A DNA stretch of 64,000 nt, from contig NZ_CP071462.1 of assembly GCF_017352155.2 (NCBI RefSeq), positions 1,922,001 through 1,986,000 on the forward strand. Direction: 5' to 3'. The translations under genes were made by a program, and so were the position numbers. This document shows positions 33,500 through 53,027 of the stretch, piece by piece. The stretch is from Haloterrigena alkaliphila. GTDB taxonomy: Archaea; Halobacteriota; Halobacteria; Halobacteriales; Natrialbaceae. Below the pieces are notes generated by a model, which saw only the letters and a program-made list of their open reading frames with translations, made no database searches and was not told where the DNA came from. The first letter of the stretch is position 1. Every line of letters starts with the position of its first letter.

Positions 33500-34060
33500 T
33501 TATTCGAGCAGTCCGAGATCATTGAGGCGGTTGGCGATCACAGTGACGGCCTGTTCGGCATCATTCACTTGTTTCCCACCAGTGACGACCAACTTCCCAG
33601 AGCCAAAGAGAAGGGCAACGACCTCTGGCTCGTCGAGTCGATACACCAACCCGGGGAACTGCTCGGGTTCGTACTCGATGTGCTCGAGACCGAGACCAAT
33701 TGCTATCGCATTCAGGTTGAGGGTGCGGCCGAGATCAGCACTACTGACAATGTTCTGGACGATGATTTCTGGATCTTCCTCAACCTGAATCTGGAGTTCA
33801 CGGAGCTTAGCGAAGACAAGGCTCAGACTCTCGTGGACAGCGTCAGTACTTTTTGCGCCAGTACAGACGATCTTTCCCGACCGGAAGATCAGTGCGGCGG
33901 ACTTGGGGTTCTGGGTACGGTAGACGAGACCAGGGAAGTTCTCAGGGTCGTAGTCAGCCCCCTCGAGATCTAATGAGACACTCTCAAGGTCGAGTTCCTG
34001 TCCAATACTGGTTGATGCCACTACGTTTTCGATGTTGATGCTGTCCTTGGGACCCGACAT
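33500..34060 (-). CDS. tbp: TATA-box-binding protein (TBP)
   Basis: A 186-residue TBP with two imperfect direct repeats of about 90 residues (NIENVVASTSIGQELDLESV / VQNIVSSADLGRTLNLNAI; PENFPGLVYR / PEQFPGLVYR; SGKIVCTGAKS / SGKLVVTGGKQ). It recruits TFB and RNA polymerase to promoters. It lies 311 bases after the AbrB-TFB fusion gene on the same strand in the accessory island, so it is an extra TBP, probably paired with that TFB. Upstream is a TATA-like box (TTATAT near 34091-34096 on the minus strand) and a dyad at 34109-34128. The Phe residues used for DNA bending in the repeats appear partly kept, but I did not map them all. Confidence 0.9.
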   Translation of the reverse strand: MSGPKDSINIENVVASTSIGQELDLESVSLDLEGADYDPENFPGLVYRTQNPKSAALIFRSGKIVCTGAKSTDAVHESLSLVFAKLRELQIQVEEDPEIIVQNIVSSADLGRTLNLNAIAIGLGLEHIEYEPEQFPGLVYRLDEPEVVALLFGSGKLVVTGGKQVNDAEQAVTVIANRLNDLGLLE

Positions 34061-34371: not shown

Positions 34372-35406
34372 CTAGTTCTCCAAGTCTATACTTTCCATTG
34401 CTTCAATTTGTTCCTGATATCGGTTTTGGATGGTAGCCTCAGTGACCTGGGCTACATCTGCGACTTCGCGCCGTGTACGCATCTCGTTGCAGAGCAGTGA
34501 GGCGGCATAGATTGCGGCGGCGGCATAGCCAGTGGGCGACTTGCCAGAGAGTAGTCCCTCCTCGGCCGTCTTCTCGATGATCTCGTTGGCCTTGGTCTGA
34601 ACCTCATCGGACAGTTCGAGTTCAGAGCAGAAGCGCGGGACGTACTTTTTCGGGTCGACGGGACGCATCTCGAGTTCGAGTTCCTGTGAGAGATACCGAT
34701 AGGTTCGACCGATCTCTGTTCGTTCAACGCGGGACACCTCGGAGATTTCCTCAAGGCTGCGCGGGATGCCCTCTTTTCGGCAGGCAGCGTACAGTGCGGA
34801 CGTTGCAACCCCTTCGATTGACCGGCCGCGAATGAGGTCTTCCTTCAGCGCGCGTCGATAGATCACCGAGGCAACCTCGCGGACCGAACTCGGGACACCG
34901 AGCGCCGAGGCCATCCGATCAATCTCCGACAGTGCAAACTGTAGATTTTGTTCACCGGCGTCCTTGGTTCGGATGCGCTCTTGCCACTTACGCAGCCGGT
35001 GCATCTGGCTACTTTTCTTCGGCGAAATTGACCGCCCGTAGGAGCTTTTGTCTTTCCAGTCCACGGCAGTTGTAACACCCTTGTCACTCAACCAGTTTGC
35101 ATCAATAGTGTCGCGCTGATTTGTCGACTCGTCATCGAATACATCCGGTTCAACCTCGTCAGTGGCTTCAACAGAAACGTGTTCCCACTCCGTATTGACT
35201 CTCTTGTCCCGTTGTGCTGTTCTTTGATAAGCCGAAGCAAGGTCTTGCTCGTTACCTGATTTCCGTAATAAAAGATCTCCCCTCTCGTCAACTGTAAACA
35301 CTACTTCCTCGCCAGCCGTTAGACCGAACTGCTCGCGGAATTCGATAGGGATTGTAACCTGCCCTCTATCCCCTACCTTACGTTTAAACCGCTTTTCCTG
35401 CTCCAT
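34372..35406 (-). CDS. tfb: AbrB/MazE DNA-binding domain fused to transcription factor B core
   Basis: 344 residues. Residues about 6-50 are a swapped-hairpin AbrB/MazE domain ([20 protein letters not shown], then GEEVVFTV). Residues 51-105 are an acidic linker with no Cys. Residues 106-145 match the TFB reader/linker ([30 protein letters not shown]). Residues about 150-344 are two cyclin folds binding TBP-DNA. The usual N-terminal zinc ribbon that contacts RNA polymerase is absent and replaced by the AbrB domain. The gene follows mazF by 53 bases on the same strand and precedes tbp. The AbrB domain should act as antitoxin or dimeric DNA-binding module, while the core should still bind TBP. 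I know of no described protein with this layout, so its function is inferred. Confidence 0.88.
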
Positions 35407-35459: not shown

Positions 35460-35810
35460 TCATTCTAACCCAAGGCTAATTTTTATAGATTGATCTATCT
35501 CTTCCATTTTTTCTCTAGATACTTCACCAAACTTATGGACAATCCGTTCACTCATATCAACTGTTCGTATTTGGTTTAGAAGGACTACTGAATCCCTATC
35601 TACATCTTCTTCTCCGGCACGTAATTCCACTTCATAAGGCGCAATATCATTTGGGTCATAACTAGTTGTCATCGGTGCGAGAATAGTCGTGGGGGCATAT
35701 CTATTTCCTACATCGTTTTGGATAATGACTGCTGGACGCCTCCCTCGTTGCTCAGATCCCTTTGTCGGGTTTAAGTTTACTAAGACAATGTCTGCGCGTC
35801 TGATGTTCAC
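35460..35810 (-). CDS. mazF: MazF/PemK-type toxin (mRNA interferase)
   Basis: 116 residues with the MazF fold: IRRADIVLVNLNPTKGSEQ, RRPAVIIQND carrying the catalytic Arg near 24-25, and LAPMTTSY carrying the catalytic Thr near 48-49. MazF cleaves single-stranded RNA at short motifs. Usually a small AbrB-like MazE antitoxin is encoded beside it; here the only AbrB domain is the N-terminus of the TFB fusion 53 bases downstream. It is first gene of the probable mazF-tfb-tbp unit, divergent from a winged-helix gene at 36102. Confidence 0.9.
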   Translation of the reverse strand: MNIRRADIVLVNLNPTKGSEQRGRRPAVIIQNDVGNRYAPTTILAPMTTSYDPNDIAPYEVELRAGEEDVDRDSVVLLNQIRTVDMSERIVHKFGEVSREKMEEIDQSIKISLGLE

Positions 35811-36101
35811 AGCTATTCTTTAATCAGTTAGCCTCTGGTAAGTAGATGCAGGGTATTTTATGGATCTCTCTTAATTTGATACAGATTGTTAATCATCCTC
35901 GTCTAAGCCCAATCACCTGAGAGCTGGTTTTGGAGACTTAAGACCAGATGGTAGATAGATCCTCAATCGGTTTGTTACGTCGTTCGCCCATAACAGTAGT
36001 TGATAATATGACTTCTTTATTGAGTTCTGCGGCCGAAAAGACCGTGATCAATTATCTTACTCGAAGATAGAATCATTGCGCTGTATCGATTACAGGGAGC
36101 C

Positions 36102-38659: not shown

Positions 38660-39586
38660 CTAGTTCTGGGAGACGTACCTCTCGGTTTTCATCTGAAGCC
38701 GATATGCACGGCGCTGTTCGTCTGTTTCTGCCTCGGCTCTGGTTTCGAAGTCAGTTACTTCGAGGAGTCGCCGTGGTTTGTACAGGTTGGTGAACCGGGC
38801 ACCGCCACTGGCCCGTCCCTCATAGTGCTGTTGCATGCGCTGAGGAAATTGGTCGCTGCGTCCTACGTAGAAGAGCCCTTTTGACTCATTGAGGAAGACT
38901 GCAGCGGATTCTCTTTCATCGGCGGGCTGGTAGCCATTGATGTGTTTTGCCTGTGTGTATCGACGGATCGCGGTGATGGCTTTTCGTTCGGCGTCCGGTG
39001 CGGGAGTACAATCGACTACGTAGACGATGTGATGGTTGCCGGGCGCTGGATTGATACCGCGTTCCTTGAGCAATGCTGCTGTGTCGGATTCGATAGTTCG
39101 GGAGAATCTGCAGAGGGTTGGGAAAGGTTGGTCGGGTACCGTCCGTTCAGGCAATTCGTTTTCTAGATCGCTGGGATCGATGTCTGGTGGGAGTGTCGTT
39201 GGTACGTGGTCGTAGTGTCGCCTGATGCCTTGGTCACTTGCTTTGATTGTGAGGATGATCCCGACGATGTATTTTCGTTCGAAGTCCAGGAGGGCTTTGT
39301 GGAGCGGCCAGCCGATTTGCTTGGTCATCAGCATATGTAACGCGGTTGCCCGCTTCTTTTTCGCGTTCCAGCTGTCGTCGTACGTTTCTTTGGTCTTAAC
39401 GAGGGTTCGCCAGTCCTGCGTGGGATCGATACGTTCGAAGCAGGCGATGAGAAACTCATCTTTGAGGCTGGTTTCGTAGCTGCAGTCGTACCGATCGCCG
39501 AGGAGAGCATCCAGTTCTTCGAGGACGTCGTCTATTTCGGTGAAGTGGGGATTGAAATCGTAGTACTCTTCCCGGAAATCTGCCAT
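38660..39586 (-). CDS. GIY-YIG-like nuclease domain protein
   Basis: 308 residues from ATG 39586 (MADFREEYYDF); the upstream start at 39628 adds 14 unlikely residues. The C-terminal third matches a GIY-YIG fold: HIVYVVDC, LFYVGRSDQFPQRMQQHYEG (second Y-x-G with catalytic Arg), FTNLYKPRRLLEV and RAEAE. About 45 residues are inserted between the two Tyr motifs, longer than usual. The N-terminal 180 residues are unrecognised and helical. It may be a defence or recombination nuclease. Confidence 0.68.
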   Translation of the reverse strand: MADFREEYYDFNPHFTEIDDVLEELDALLGDRYDCSYETSLKDEFLIACFERIDPTQDWRTLVKTKETYDDSWNAKKKRATALHMLMTKQIGWPLHKALLDFERKYIVGIILTIKASDQGIRRHYDHVPTTLPPDIDPSDLENELPERTVPDQPFPTLCRFSRTIESDTAALLKERGINPAPGNHHIVYVVDCTPAPDAERKAITAIRRYTQAKHINGYQPADERESAAVFLNESKGLFYVGRSDQFPQRMQQHYEGRASGGARFTNLYKPRRLLEVTDFETRAEAETDEQRRAYRLQMKTERYVSQN

Positions 39587-39750
39587 GGGGTGGTATGTCG
39601 ATAATCTAGACGATAAAGCTCCGTTCACAGTGCAACCACTGCAACAGTACTGTGTCTGAGATCTCTGAATGTGATGTATAGCTCCACAAAATATGCGGAA
39701 TATGTGACCTAAATATGTATGGGGTGTTGTATATATGAAATTCAGTGAGA

Positions 39751-50500: not shown

Positions 50501-52003
50501 GACCTGTTCGATGGCCGTGAATGCAGCCTCGGCAAACGTCTCAAGACGTTCACCTTCAATGTCGGCATACTCGCTCTCGTCTTCCGGGATTTTGTCAACG
50601 GCCGTCGAGAACGAGATGATGTTCTTGCGAGGGTCGTAGTCGTCATCGGGGTCGTCGGGATGGAGCCGACCGCAATCGACGGCGGCACTGAGCATTAGAG
50701 TTCGTTCGTTGATGTAGTCCATCTCCACATTGAGGTAGACACGGATCAGCGAGTCCTGCGGGATAGGCAGGTCAACATCCCAGCTGTCCGGCGGGTCGTC
50801 GTTTGGGAGGTCGGCCTTGCCGCTGCCCTGCAGCCAGACCTTCCCCTTCCAACCGGCCTCGCGGTTGGCGAGCGGGTGGGACGGGTTGAGCTTGCCGAGT
50901 TTGGCTTGCGCCCGTTGGGCGGTGAGTTGCATCTTCTCGGAGACACGCAGGTCACCGTTCAATTCCTGCACCACGTCCTCGTAGCCGTCGCGGACGGCAG
51001 GCAGGTCATTGTAGGGGCGCAGGTCATCCGGTTGCTCAACGAGTGCGGCGACGTCCTTGAGCGTGTGGAGGTCTTGCTCGCGGTAGGCCATCTGTTCGGG
51101 CAGCGACAGGCCGAGGAGACTGATGTCTTGCTGCTCGACCGCGATGATGTAGAAGTACTCGCCGTACTGGGATTCGTGGGCGGCCTTTCCTAGCTCGAAC
51201 ATCGGCACGTCCTCGCGGCCGAACACCTCGTTGAGAAAGCCGTCCTCGGCGAGCAACCGCCGAATGTCCTCGCGGCGGGACGCTGGGTTGAACGACGGCA
51301 GCTCCTCGTAGTCGAGAAAGTTGATGCTAGTGTCGCCGTCGATGATGCCTGCCGTGAGATCGTACTCTACATCCGTCCCTTCGTCGAGGATCTTGTTGAT
51401 GATCGTCGAGTAAAAAACGGCCTGAAGCTGATGGTGAGGCTTCTCTTCGCCCGCTTTCACGTCCATTGCCCGAATGTGGACAGCGGCGTCAGTGTCGTCG
51501 TCGGGCTTCGCCGGCCAGACGACCACGATGTCGGCCTCGCTGTTGATCGGGAAGTCATCGATCCAACCGTTGAGGTCGGGATTAACGAGCAGGGCTGGGC
51601 CGTGGGTACTTCCGCGGGCGACGCGCTCGATGGTCTCGATGATCTCGTCGTCACTGAAGTCGGGATCACAGACTGCGTCTGGGTGCCCGGAGAGGTCGGG
51701 CGCGTTCTCGGCAACTTCCCAGACGCGGACAACTCCGGCCATGGGGGCGAGTTGCTCGACGACGTGTTCCTCGTGCTTGTCGCCAAGCGTTGTGAGCGCC
51801 GGCGCGGGAGCATAATCGGGCTCCACTAACTTCTCATCGGAGACGGGGGGTACCCCGCGTTGATTGTCATCACGGGAGAGGAACTTCAGGTCCGTGAACA
51901 GTGTTGACCTACTGAACTGGACTACTTCCGTGACGTTGGATGGACTAATGGGCTCTTTGCCCTTGTCCCCGCTATCTCTATCTTCGTTCGGGTTTGGTGT
52001 CAT
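47525..52003 (-). CDS. RecB/Cas4-type nuclease fused to SF1 (Dna2/Upf1-like) helicase
   Basis: 1,492 residues. The N-terminal part holds a RecB-family nuclease: His80 (EEHVVEQL), Asp158 (SEADIVVV), Asp181-Val-Lys183 (MDVKAG) and QLQAVFY at 192-198. A central region of about 700 residues has no clear domain. The C-terminal part from about 1000 is an SF1B helicase: QGPPGTGKT near 1020, LLAVDEAS, GDHRQMPPV, RKTYRCH, GVVTPHNAQKA, VERFQGDE and NVALSRMKKKLVVV. This layout resembles Dna2 and single-protein defence helicase-nucleases. Its start overlaps the upstream recombinase gene by 26 bases, so they form one transcription unit. A defence or plasmid-maintenance function is inferred; repair is the alternative. 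Confidence 0.85.
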   Translation of the reverse strand: MTPNPNEDRDSGDKGKEPISPSNVTEVVQFSRSTLFTDLKFLSRDDNQRGVPPVSDEKLVEPDYAPAPALTTLGDKHEEHVVEQLAPMAGVVRVWEVAENAPDLSGHPDAVCDPDFSDDEIIETIERVARGSTHGPALLVNPDLNGWIDDFPINSEADIVVVWPAKPDDDTDAAVHIRAMDVKAGEEKPHHQLQAVFYSTIINKILDEGTDVEYDLTAGIIDGDTSINFLDYEELPSFNPASRREDIRRLLAEDGFLNEVFGREDVPMFELGKAAHESQYGEYFYIIAVEQQDISLLGLSLPEQMAYREQDLHTLKDVAALVEQPDDLRPYNDLPAVRDGYEDVVQELNGDLRVSEKMQLTAQRAQAKLGKLNPSHPLANREAGWKGKVWLQGSGKADLPNDDPPDSWDVDLPIPQDSLIRVYLNVEMDYINERTLMLSAAVDCGRLHPDDPDDDYDPRKNIISFSTAVDKIPEDESEYADIEGERLETFAEAAFTAIEQVASEINVDKEETSYHFYLHSEGERRSLTDALRRHDDRYACRILRDVLDLRGGIKDSVPHLEQSMVSVVQPALRNHCAFADPGYGIPHAHDQVAGYDKEFWQHTRAADDETVDLRDEFAYQFITRSAPGRRRADGSFEFVSDSEESHDVYYPTRARNRSQLPVEYFWGATDIDVPYEEWKDTEEGFEGLSNRFVWVDSSEEELPIYKGDIEELGERLALALRDIERDLKFCGKILNKDSTVEKHPLPANLPRLEVELGNRESRSLADCGSDVVDLEHEASLRELERRRDKPVLERIRTGRAIPVVVESFESDACDVVAEMAYDHRALDGENRELLEQACRVDGPFVTASKLSADSGELAVDTDEWSVSNAPRFSIENLDWDAGIIHLEGASKMWWRNDEYEQWYPTPRFGEPAENGYECTINEGDLLLLDEDDMTIGAARANHALNGADGNQLYDLIESIRTGSYTPADLVTSGFDTAGVEDFLNDLEEAAEASDNDEFVAPNKKQREFIEKTDVNLSLLQGPPGTGKTKGSLAPGLLSRASSRLANEEPFNGLIAAPTHTAIDEVLDETVHLHEWCLNEDVGDVEGVQLVRLDKNPSDGGNDDVRYLDTSNSSDMSWLVRALWTAKLDDVRSVIVFATPQSVFKLTKQLYDGNEAPSAAYSTSPQLFSLLAVDEASMMTLPQLFMASPLITEDAQTVIAGDHRQMPPVQQRGWIDEDRTPTIQSAAFLSALNFCRYLRGDDVERLKRHDLFDEDSPEADGIEFTRLRKTYRCHLDVTEFLRRWMYEQDGIKYVSDVDSTLETADGDVPDALHPVFEESPLILITHDDRGSQQRNETEANLVSRLCELVPGEEGVGVVTPHNAQKALIGARTGDNVDVDTVERFQGDERECIVVSAAVSDPSYLDLESDFIMNPNRLNVALSRMKKKLVVVAPESLFELVPQEKDAYQDAQIWKGLHATATKGGPATTGEGETTGTIFRVYTFDGYEEVSSDN

Positions 52004-53027
52004 AATCGGATTTGATTGAGTCCAGTTTCGCGGATTCGAGATACGAGCGCCGCTGCTCTAGCTTTACCTCCTCTGATCGTCGGTCGTAGTGCTTATCTAG
52101 GATTTTTCGGCTGACATCCATCCGATCCCCGACGACTTCGGTTGGGACATCCTTCGTTAGAAAGTGGGTGATGCTCCCTCGTCGAACCGCGTGTGGAGTC
52201 ACTGCTTCGGGGCACTTCGCGTCTGTACTCTCCGCACAATCAGGACACTCCTCGTCGAGGAAGCAGGGTGCTGTGATATTGTAGACATAGCGGCGCATGC
52301 TACTCCTAGAGAGTCGTCCTTGACGACTCGTCAACAGGGGTTCACGCCCGGTATCATCGGTCTGATCAGGACGCGTATTTTCGATATAGTCCTCCAGTAA
52401 GATCGCTAAACCTGGTGAGATCGCCACAAGCCGTTCGCCACCAGTCCCATTTTTTAACGGTGTTCCCGTCTCCGGTCGGTGGCTAAACCTCAAGAACTCG
52501 TCCTCTAGATCGACATCCTGCAGATCGAGTGATTTGGCAGCGCCGATCCGAATTCCCGTCTCCCATAGCAGGGCGAGCAGAACGTGTTTGATCGACGCGT
52601 AGGAGAAATTCGAGAGGTACGACAGAATCTCCTCTGCTCGGTCTTTTTCTAGCAACTCGTCCCGTTGTTGCTCCTCCGTAGGGACCTGTGGGACCATGAC
52701 TTTGGTGTAGAGGTTCGGATCAACTGCTTCGATAGACCCACACCAGCGCAGGAACACTCGGATCGTACTCATCTGCGTTTGGAGCGAGACCGCGTTCAGG
52801 TCTCCGTCTTCCTTTCGCCAGAGGCGGTATTCGTGAATGTGTCGCCCCGTAAGGTCGTTCATATTGTCGATCCCCTTCTCGTCGCACCAGCGGACGAAGT
52901 GGTTCGTTCGGTATCGGTGACCCTGGACCGTCTTCTCCATCGCCTGGGACGCTTTGTGGTCGAGGTATAGTTGCTGCGCGGTACTCGGATCGATCGGATC
53001 GAGATTGTGGTTTCCGTCTTCGGACAT
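51978..53027 (-). CDS. Tyrosine recombinase (phage/XerCD-type integrase)
   Basis: 349 residues: an N-terminal SAM-like DNA-binding part (HRYRTNHFVRWCDEKG) and a C-terminal catalytic domain with Arg160 (WETGIRIGAAKSL), His279-x-x-Arg282 (PHAVRRGS) and Tyr314 (DKHYDRRSEE). A Cys cluster (FLDEECPDC, DAKCPEA) typical of haloarchaeal integrases lies before the HxxR box. It is encoded upstream of and overlapping the helicase-nuclease, at the right edge of the accessory island. It could mobilise the island or just the helicase module. No tRNA gene or attachment site was recognised next to it. Confidence 0.88.
   Translation of the reverse strand: MSEDGNHNLDPIDPSTAQQLYLDHKASQAMEKTVQGHRYRTNHFVRWCDEKGIDNMNDLTGRHIHEYRLWRKEDGDLNAVSLQTQMSTIRVFLRWCGSIEAVDPNLYTKVMVPQVPTEEQQRDELLEKDRAEEILSYLSNFSYASIKHVLLALLWETGIRIGAAKSLDLQDVDLEDEFLRFSHRPETGTPLKNGTGGERLVAISPGLAILLEDYIENTRPDQTDDTGREPLLTSRQGRLSRSSMRRYVYNITAPCFLDEECPDCAESTDAKCPEAVTPHAVRRGSITHFLTKDVPTEVVGDRMDVSRKILDKHYDRRSEEVKLEQRRSYLESAKLDSIKSDYDTKPERR

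Follow-up and report, generated by a model that had tools for sequence, protein, structure and literature searches.

What does a protein do that carries an AbrB-type domain where a TFB should carry its zinc ribbon, and whose gene stands directly behind that of a toxin? This question is raised by a locus of Haloterrigena alkaliphila, which we analysed within a stretch of 64,000 nt (hereafter the window). An earlier note on this DNA had described a TFB in which the polymerase-binding zinc ribbon was replaced by an AbrB domain, and had offered three readings of the product: a dominant-negative factor, a repressor with two DNA-binding modes, or a factor recruiting polymerase in a different way. 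The features on which our analysis turns are as follows, in window coordinates.

33500..34060, minus strand: TBP paralogue (Pfam TBP, E 1.9e-59)
34372..35406, minus strand: mazE::tfb fusion gene, 344 aa, a single open ORF (Pfam MazE_antitoxin and TFIIB twice)
34396..34965, minus strand: TFB cyclin repeats 1 and 2, residues 148–337, with V324A and R327Q in the BRE-reading helix
34966..35085, minus strand: TFB B-linker, residues 108–147, from alignment to the canonical TFB of the same genome (L002)
35086..35142, minus strand: junction, residues 89–107, without clear homology (alignments; inference)
35143..35406, minus strand: MazE antitoxin part, residues 1–88 (homology to free-standing MazE; AbrB fold; third-position GC 0.46)
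within the MazE part, minus strand: AbrB DNA-binding domain (residues ~6–50) and helical tail of toxin-binding type (residues ~53–88)
35460..35810, minus strand: mazF/pemK toxin gene, 116 aa, GTG start (Pfam PemK_toxin, E 6.9e-34)

Architecture of the fusion gene

The fusion is encoded by one ORF with an ATG start and no internal stops, in which Pfam recognizes MazE_antitoxin over residues 9–54 (E 2.3e-13) and two TFIIB repeats (E 3.6e-53), in agreement with the claim that both cyclin repeats are kept; the PF04014 score of the N-terminus, 50.3 bits, is above cut-off. The only cysteines lie at residues 209, 260 and 306, so that a zinc ribbon cannot form, and the observation that residues 1–105 are free of Cys extends to everything before residue 209.

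An AlphaFold2 model of residues 1–100, built on an alignment of 48 MazE-type proteins, has a mean pLDDT of 81–93 across residues 1–50, and its top Foldseek matches in the PDB are AbrB (1yfb, TM-score by target 0.79), SpoVT and MazE, with E-values that are weak (best 0.004), as expected with a 50-residue domain. The AbrB fold is thus present over residues 1–50, and the replacement of the ribbon is real. The assignment of residues 6–50 to AbrB matches this fold, but it stops short, as the N-terminal part is more than AbrB: residues 5–85 or beyond align with free-standing MazE proteins of ~90 aa at 32–50% identity, and homology reaches residue ~85–90, so that it takes in the helical tail as well as the AbrB domain. 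Free MazE ends in a conserved LGDAPEW; this is either missing here or has moved to DANW at residues 102–105, a string that resembles the DAPEW end and may be a remnant of it. In an AlphaFold2 model of the whole fusion the N-terminus is poor, and the core matches the archaeal TFB 1d3u best.

Third-position GC rises stepwise from 0.32 in mazF through the value of the MazE part to 0.65 in the TFB part, marking the fusion gene as a visible mosaic. We considered whether a sequencing error had joined two genes and rejected this, because the 84 missing N-terminal TFB residues are encoded in no frame of the window and the genome assembly consists of 3 contigs at 99.8% completeness.

Losses, origin and constraint of the TFB half

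Homology to TFB becomes clear at residue ~108 ([13 protein letters not shown]...), which corresponds to residue ~87 of the canonical TFB. Two parts are missing: the zinc ribbon, present in every other TFB inspected, and the B-reader, whose segment in the canonical gene (EWRAF...SRVGAP, by the usual limits of the domain) has no counterpart in the fusion. The B-linker and both cyclin repeats are retained. The motif that the earlier note had called reader/linker ([17 protein letters not shown]) is the B-linker, so the linker portion of that claim stands and the reader portion falls. Against the NCBIfam model NF001658 the fusion scores 335.6 bits, below the cut-off of 384, compared with 470.6 for the canonical protein. 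The same genome also encodes a 102-aa protein that has just one TFIIB-like cyclin repeat and lacks a zinc ribbon (L009, C1:89411–89635).

Over residues 104–337 the fusion is 91% identical to the canonical TFB, whose 230-aa linker-plus-cyclin core is itself invariant across 30 genomes sampled from many genera of the family (L002, L012–L040). Judged by its sequence, the TFB core of the fusion belongs with this housekeeping TFB, from which it appears to derive; a DNA tree gives it no firm place among the canonical TFBs. As the canonical core is identical in all 30 genomes, the 18 changes that separate it from the fusion's core would most simply all have arisen on the branch of the fusion. Relative to L002, the core shows dS ~1 and dN 0.052, with similar values in each repeat, and because dN/dS is ~0.05 it looks maintained by purifying selection. 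It appears constrained, yet clearly less so than the canonical TFB, and the selection could in part predate the fusion event.

Basic residues are hit more often than expected, in 7 of the 18 changes (hypergeometric P 0.027); six are lost from the core, which takes its net charge from +6 to +1. In the BRE-reading helix of repeat 2 the conserved Val and Arg are gone (V324A, R327Q), at positions that we take to be equivalent to the BRE contacts V283 and R286 of human TFIIB; the earlier note had missed this loss. Among 17 other TFBs, a diverse set that includes paralogues only 35% identical, position 327 is Arg without exception and position 324 is Val in 16, and Pyrococcus and human TFIIB likewise have both residues. 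The probability that both BRE sites would be changed among 18 of 230 positions is 0.006, for sites that were picked post hoc.

The toxin gene and a candidate autorepressor

The mazF gene lies directly upstream of the fusion on the same strand, across a gap of 53 bases. Its product is ~60% identical to its nearest relatives and is intact at the conserved S19, E20, R25 and T48, giving the neighbour toxin a PemK/MazF fold (Pfam) with the catalytic Arg and Thr (R25, T48). Free-standing MazE relatives of the fusion's N-terminal part adjoin MazF in 46 genomes. The order here is mazF followed by the antitoxin, whereas all 46 other genomes that have a related pair place the antitoxin first. No ORF or repeat that could represent a second mazE occurs upstream of mazF in 35811–36101, and the H. 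alkaliphila genome yielded no further MazE of this family. The remaining AbrB-domain proteins of the genome are PhoU-type proteins, AbrB/PIN pairs (PhoU and PIN being putative labels read off the sequences) or weak matches, leaving the fusion as the only visible candidate antitoxin. Because no other MazE of the family was found and an intact mazF adjoins, the fusion is likely to be the antitoxin of this MazF, and its nearly complete MazE part beside the intact toxin gene, the strongest clue and one of which the earlier note made little use, makes this the likeliest first role.

An inverted-repeat search found no operator upstream, and the TATA-like element that a motif scan gave at about −28 is not above chance; a sigma-70 scan is uninformative for archaea. 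On the other side, 311 bases downstream of the fusion and on the same strand, lies the TBP paralogue, one of three TBPs in the genome, of which the other two are 85–88% identical to it; this gene may or may not be part of the same unit. The locus sits inside a lower-GC stretch at about 27–48 kb of the window, with an integrase by the far end at 52 kb. A 322-aa GIY-YIG domain protein is encoded in the same region (38660–39628). Between 45786 and 53027, the integrase (51978–53027) is accompanied by a 1492-aa helicase matching PADLOC MkoA models (E 1.6e-29) and a PD-(D/E)XK protein matching PDC-S26 models, which together suggest a possible defence island near the fusion.

We favour, with somewhat less than even confidence, a model in which a MazF antitoxin was fused in frame to the DNA- and TBP-binding half of a housekeeping TFB, with loss of the polymerase-recruiting half, and now acts as a reinforced autorepressor. 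The sequence itself establishes the architecture, the missing parts, the intact mazF beside the fusion and the purifying selection; toxin binding, operator binding, TBP binding and repression are what we infer for this protein. The helical MazE tail would neutralise MazF, an AbrB dimer would bind an operator at the mazF and mazE::tfb promoters, and the tethered TFB core would sit with TBP on the TATA region, keeping the promoter occupied so that RNA polymerase could not be loaded. Without ribbon and reader, the fusion could at best form a TBP-DNA complex unable to start transcription. Promoter occupation would amount to stronger autorepression, relieved when the antitoxin is degraded, and since the BRE-reading residues are altered, sequence specificity would come from the AbrB domain and not from the BRE. 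More tentatively still, the antitoxin may have captured a basal factor as an operator-directed, polymerase-incompetent promoter plug, turning a general factor into a gene-specific repressor. Of the three readings in the earlier note, repression or dominant-negative action fits best, because the ribbon and B-reader are absent and the TBP- and DNA-binding core is under purifying selection; for the third, polymerase recruited differently, the kept B-linker is the one feature of the protein that speaks in its favour.

Several observations weigh against autorepression. The loss of basic residues and BRE contacts may leave the TFB part hardly binding DNA, the LGDAPEW terminus of free MazE has been lost or shifted, no inverted-repeat operator was found upstream, and the TATA-like element does not rise above chance. 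In addition, an AbrB dimer would bring two TFB cores, an awkward stoichiometry for a single promoter, and the fusion is a singleton on which selection could be partly older than the fused state.

The strongest rival, which we nonetheless regard as rather unlikely, is that a working MazE antitoxin carries the TFB core as a tail that is tolerated, or that stabilises the protein, but has no role in promoter binding. An intact mazF beside a nearly complete MazE part, the loss of the BRE contacts and of basic charge, and the occurrence of the fusion as a singleton are all consistent with such a passenger. However, cyclin repeats that are 91% identical to the canonical ones, with dN/dS of 0.05 at dS ~1, exceed the constraint expected of an inert tail.

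Less probable again is an activator or alternative TFB, in which the AbrB domain would direct the core to particular promoters and polymerase would be engaged through the B-linker, through contacts of MazF/MazE, or through a canonical TFB in trans. The kept B-linker is in keeping with this, and there is precedent: archaea are known to activate weak-BRE promoters by having a DNA-binding protein bring TFB to them, as with TFB-RF1 (PMC5937170), and Sulfolobus TFB3 activates jointly with a canonical TFB (PMC7289017). The fusion has, however, lost both the B-reader and the zinc ribbon that contacts the RNA polymerase dock, and we identified no partner that would substitute for them.

We consider it very unlikely that the fusion is a global dominant-negative TFB that competes for TBP and for promoters across the genome with the canonical TFBs, for instance as the growth-arrest arm of a toxin-antitoxin module. 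A core taken from a housekeeping TFB and deprived of the polymerase-binding half would suit this role, but the weakened BRE contacts and the reduced basic charge argue against strong competition, and antitoxins are usually of low abundance and unstable. Slightest of all is the prospect of a decaying recombination product without function or an assembly artefact, as might be suspected from the single genome, the unusual mazF-first order and the low-GC island with its integrase, given that the ORF is intact with dN/dS of 0.05 at dS ~1, that an intact mazF needs an antitoxin, and that the missing TFB N-terminus left no trace where an assembly error should leave one.

Distribution and comparison with known systems

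A second MazE-TFB fusion was found neither among the MazE-type matches listed for 391 genomes of the class nor among those listed for all 125 genomes of the family, and the matches listed for PLSDB plasmids and INPHARED phages likewise held none. Scans of IMG/VR and GTDB contigs, which detect close relatives only and yield weak negatives, also returned none. These searches covered MazE-type matches, with combinations of TFB and AbrB domains of other families covered less than exhaustively. The fusion is known from one genome, and the fused state has no comparative conservation.

In another genome (G141), an open frame of 294 aa that matches MazE was rejected as a fusion, being an ordinary MazE-MazF pair with upstream read-through. 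In a genome of another genus (G367; L065, 2015–2962 and 1117–1746), the gene for a divergent full-length TFB immediately precedes a MazE-MazF pair on its own strand, so that tfb and mazEF adjoin a second time, here without fusion. On the Halobacterium salinarum plasmid PHS2 (L132), a TFB gene is followed on the same strand by a gene of the Fic family.

How the many TFB paralogues of haloarchaea divide their tasks is a matter of debate. A natural, maintained TFB that lacks ribbon and reader, has altered BRE residues and carries an antitoxin instead would make it possible to test cleanly what the individual TFB parts contribute and whether basal factors can turn into gene-specific repressors. 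It would also add a basal transcription factor to the known partners of antitoxins and tie stress toxins directly to the initiation machinery.

Set against known regulators of initiation, an autorepressor of this kind would be a covalent counterpart of TFB-RF1 of Pyrococcus furiosus, which recruits full-length TFB in trans to weak-BRE promoters and activates them (PMC5937170). Both pair a DNA-binding regulator with TFB, but the fusion, having no part with which to recruit polymerase, would be expected to repress. Sulfolobus TFB3 and the plant protein AtBRF5, an atypical TFIIB-family member without the zinc domain (PMC7865254), similarly deviate from the rest of the family in domain content or in role; neither is fused to an antitoxin, and AtBRF5 has one cyclin repeat. 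The haloarchaeal AbrB-PhoU proteins, of which this genome probably has three, share an AbrB-type N-terminal domain set on a larger C-terminal domain, the latter being unrelated to that of the fusion.

With canonical haloarchaeal TFBs the fusion has in common the B-linker and two cyclin repeats, and it differs in having no zinc ribbon and no B-reader, in the replacement of the invariant Arg of the BRE helix by Gln and of its Val by Ala, and in falling below the NF001658 cut-off. With type II MazEF/PemIK modules it shares an AbrB DNA-binding domain, a helical tail and an intact MazF on the same strand; it differs in an antitoxin of 344 aa that bears a TFB core, in a toxin gene that comes first where the 46 other genomes have the antitoxin first, and in the lost or displaced LGDAPEW motif. 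The fusion therefore fits neither TFB, by its ribbon, reader, BRE residues and NCBIfam score, nor standard MazE, by its length, gene order and C-terminal motif. Most likely it works like MazE, and the locus is best read as a MazEF module in which half of a general transcription factor has been joined to the antitoxin.
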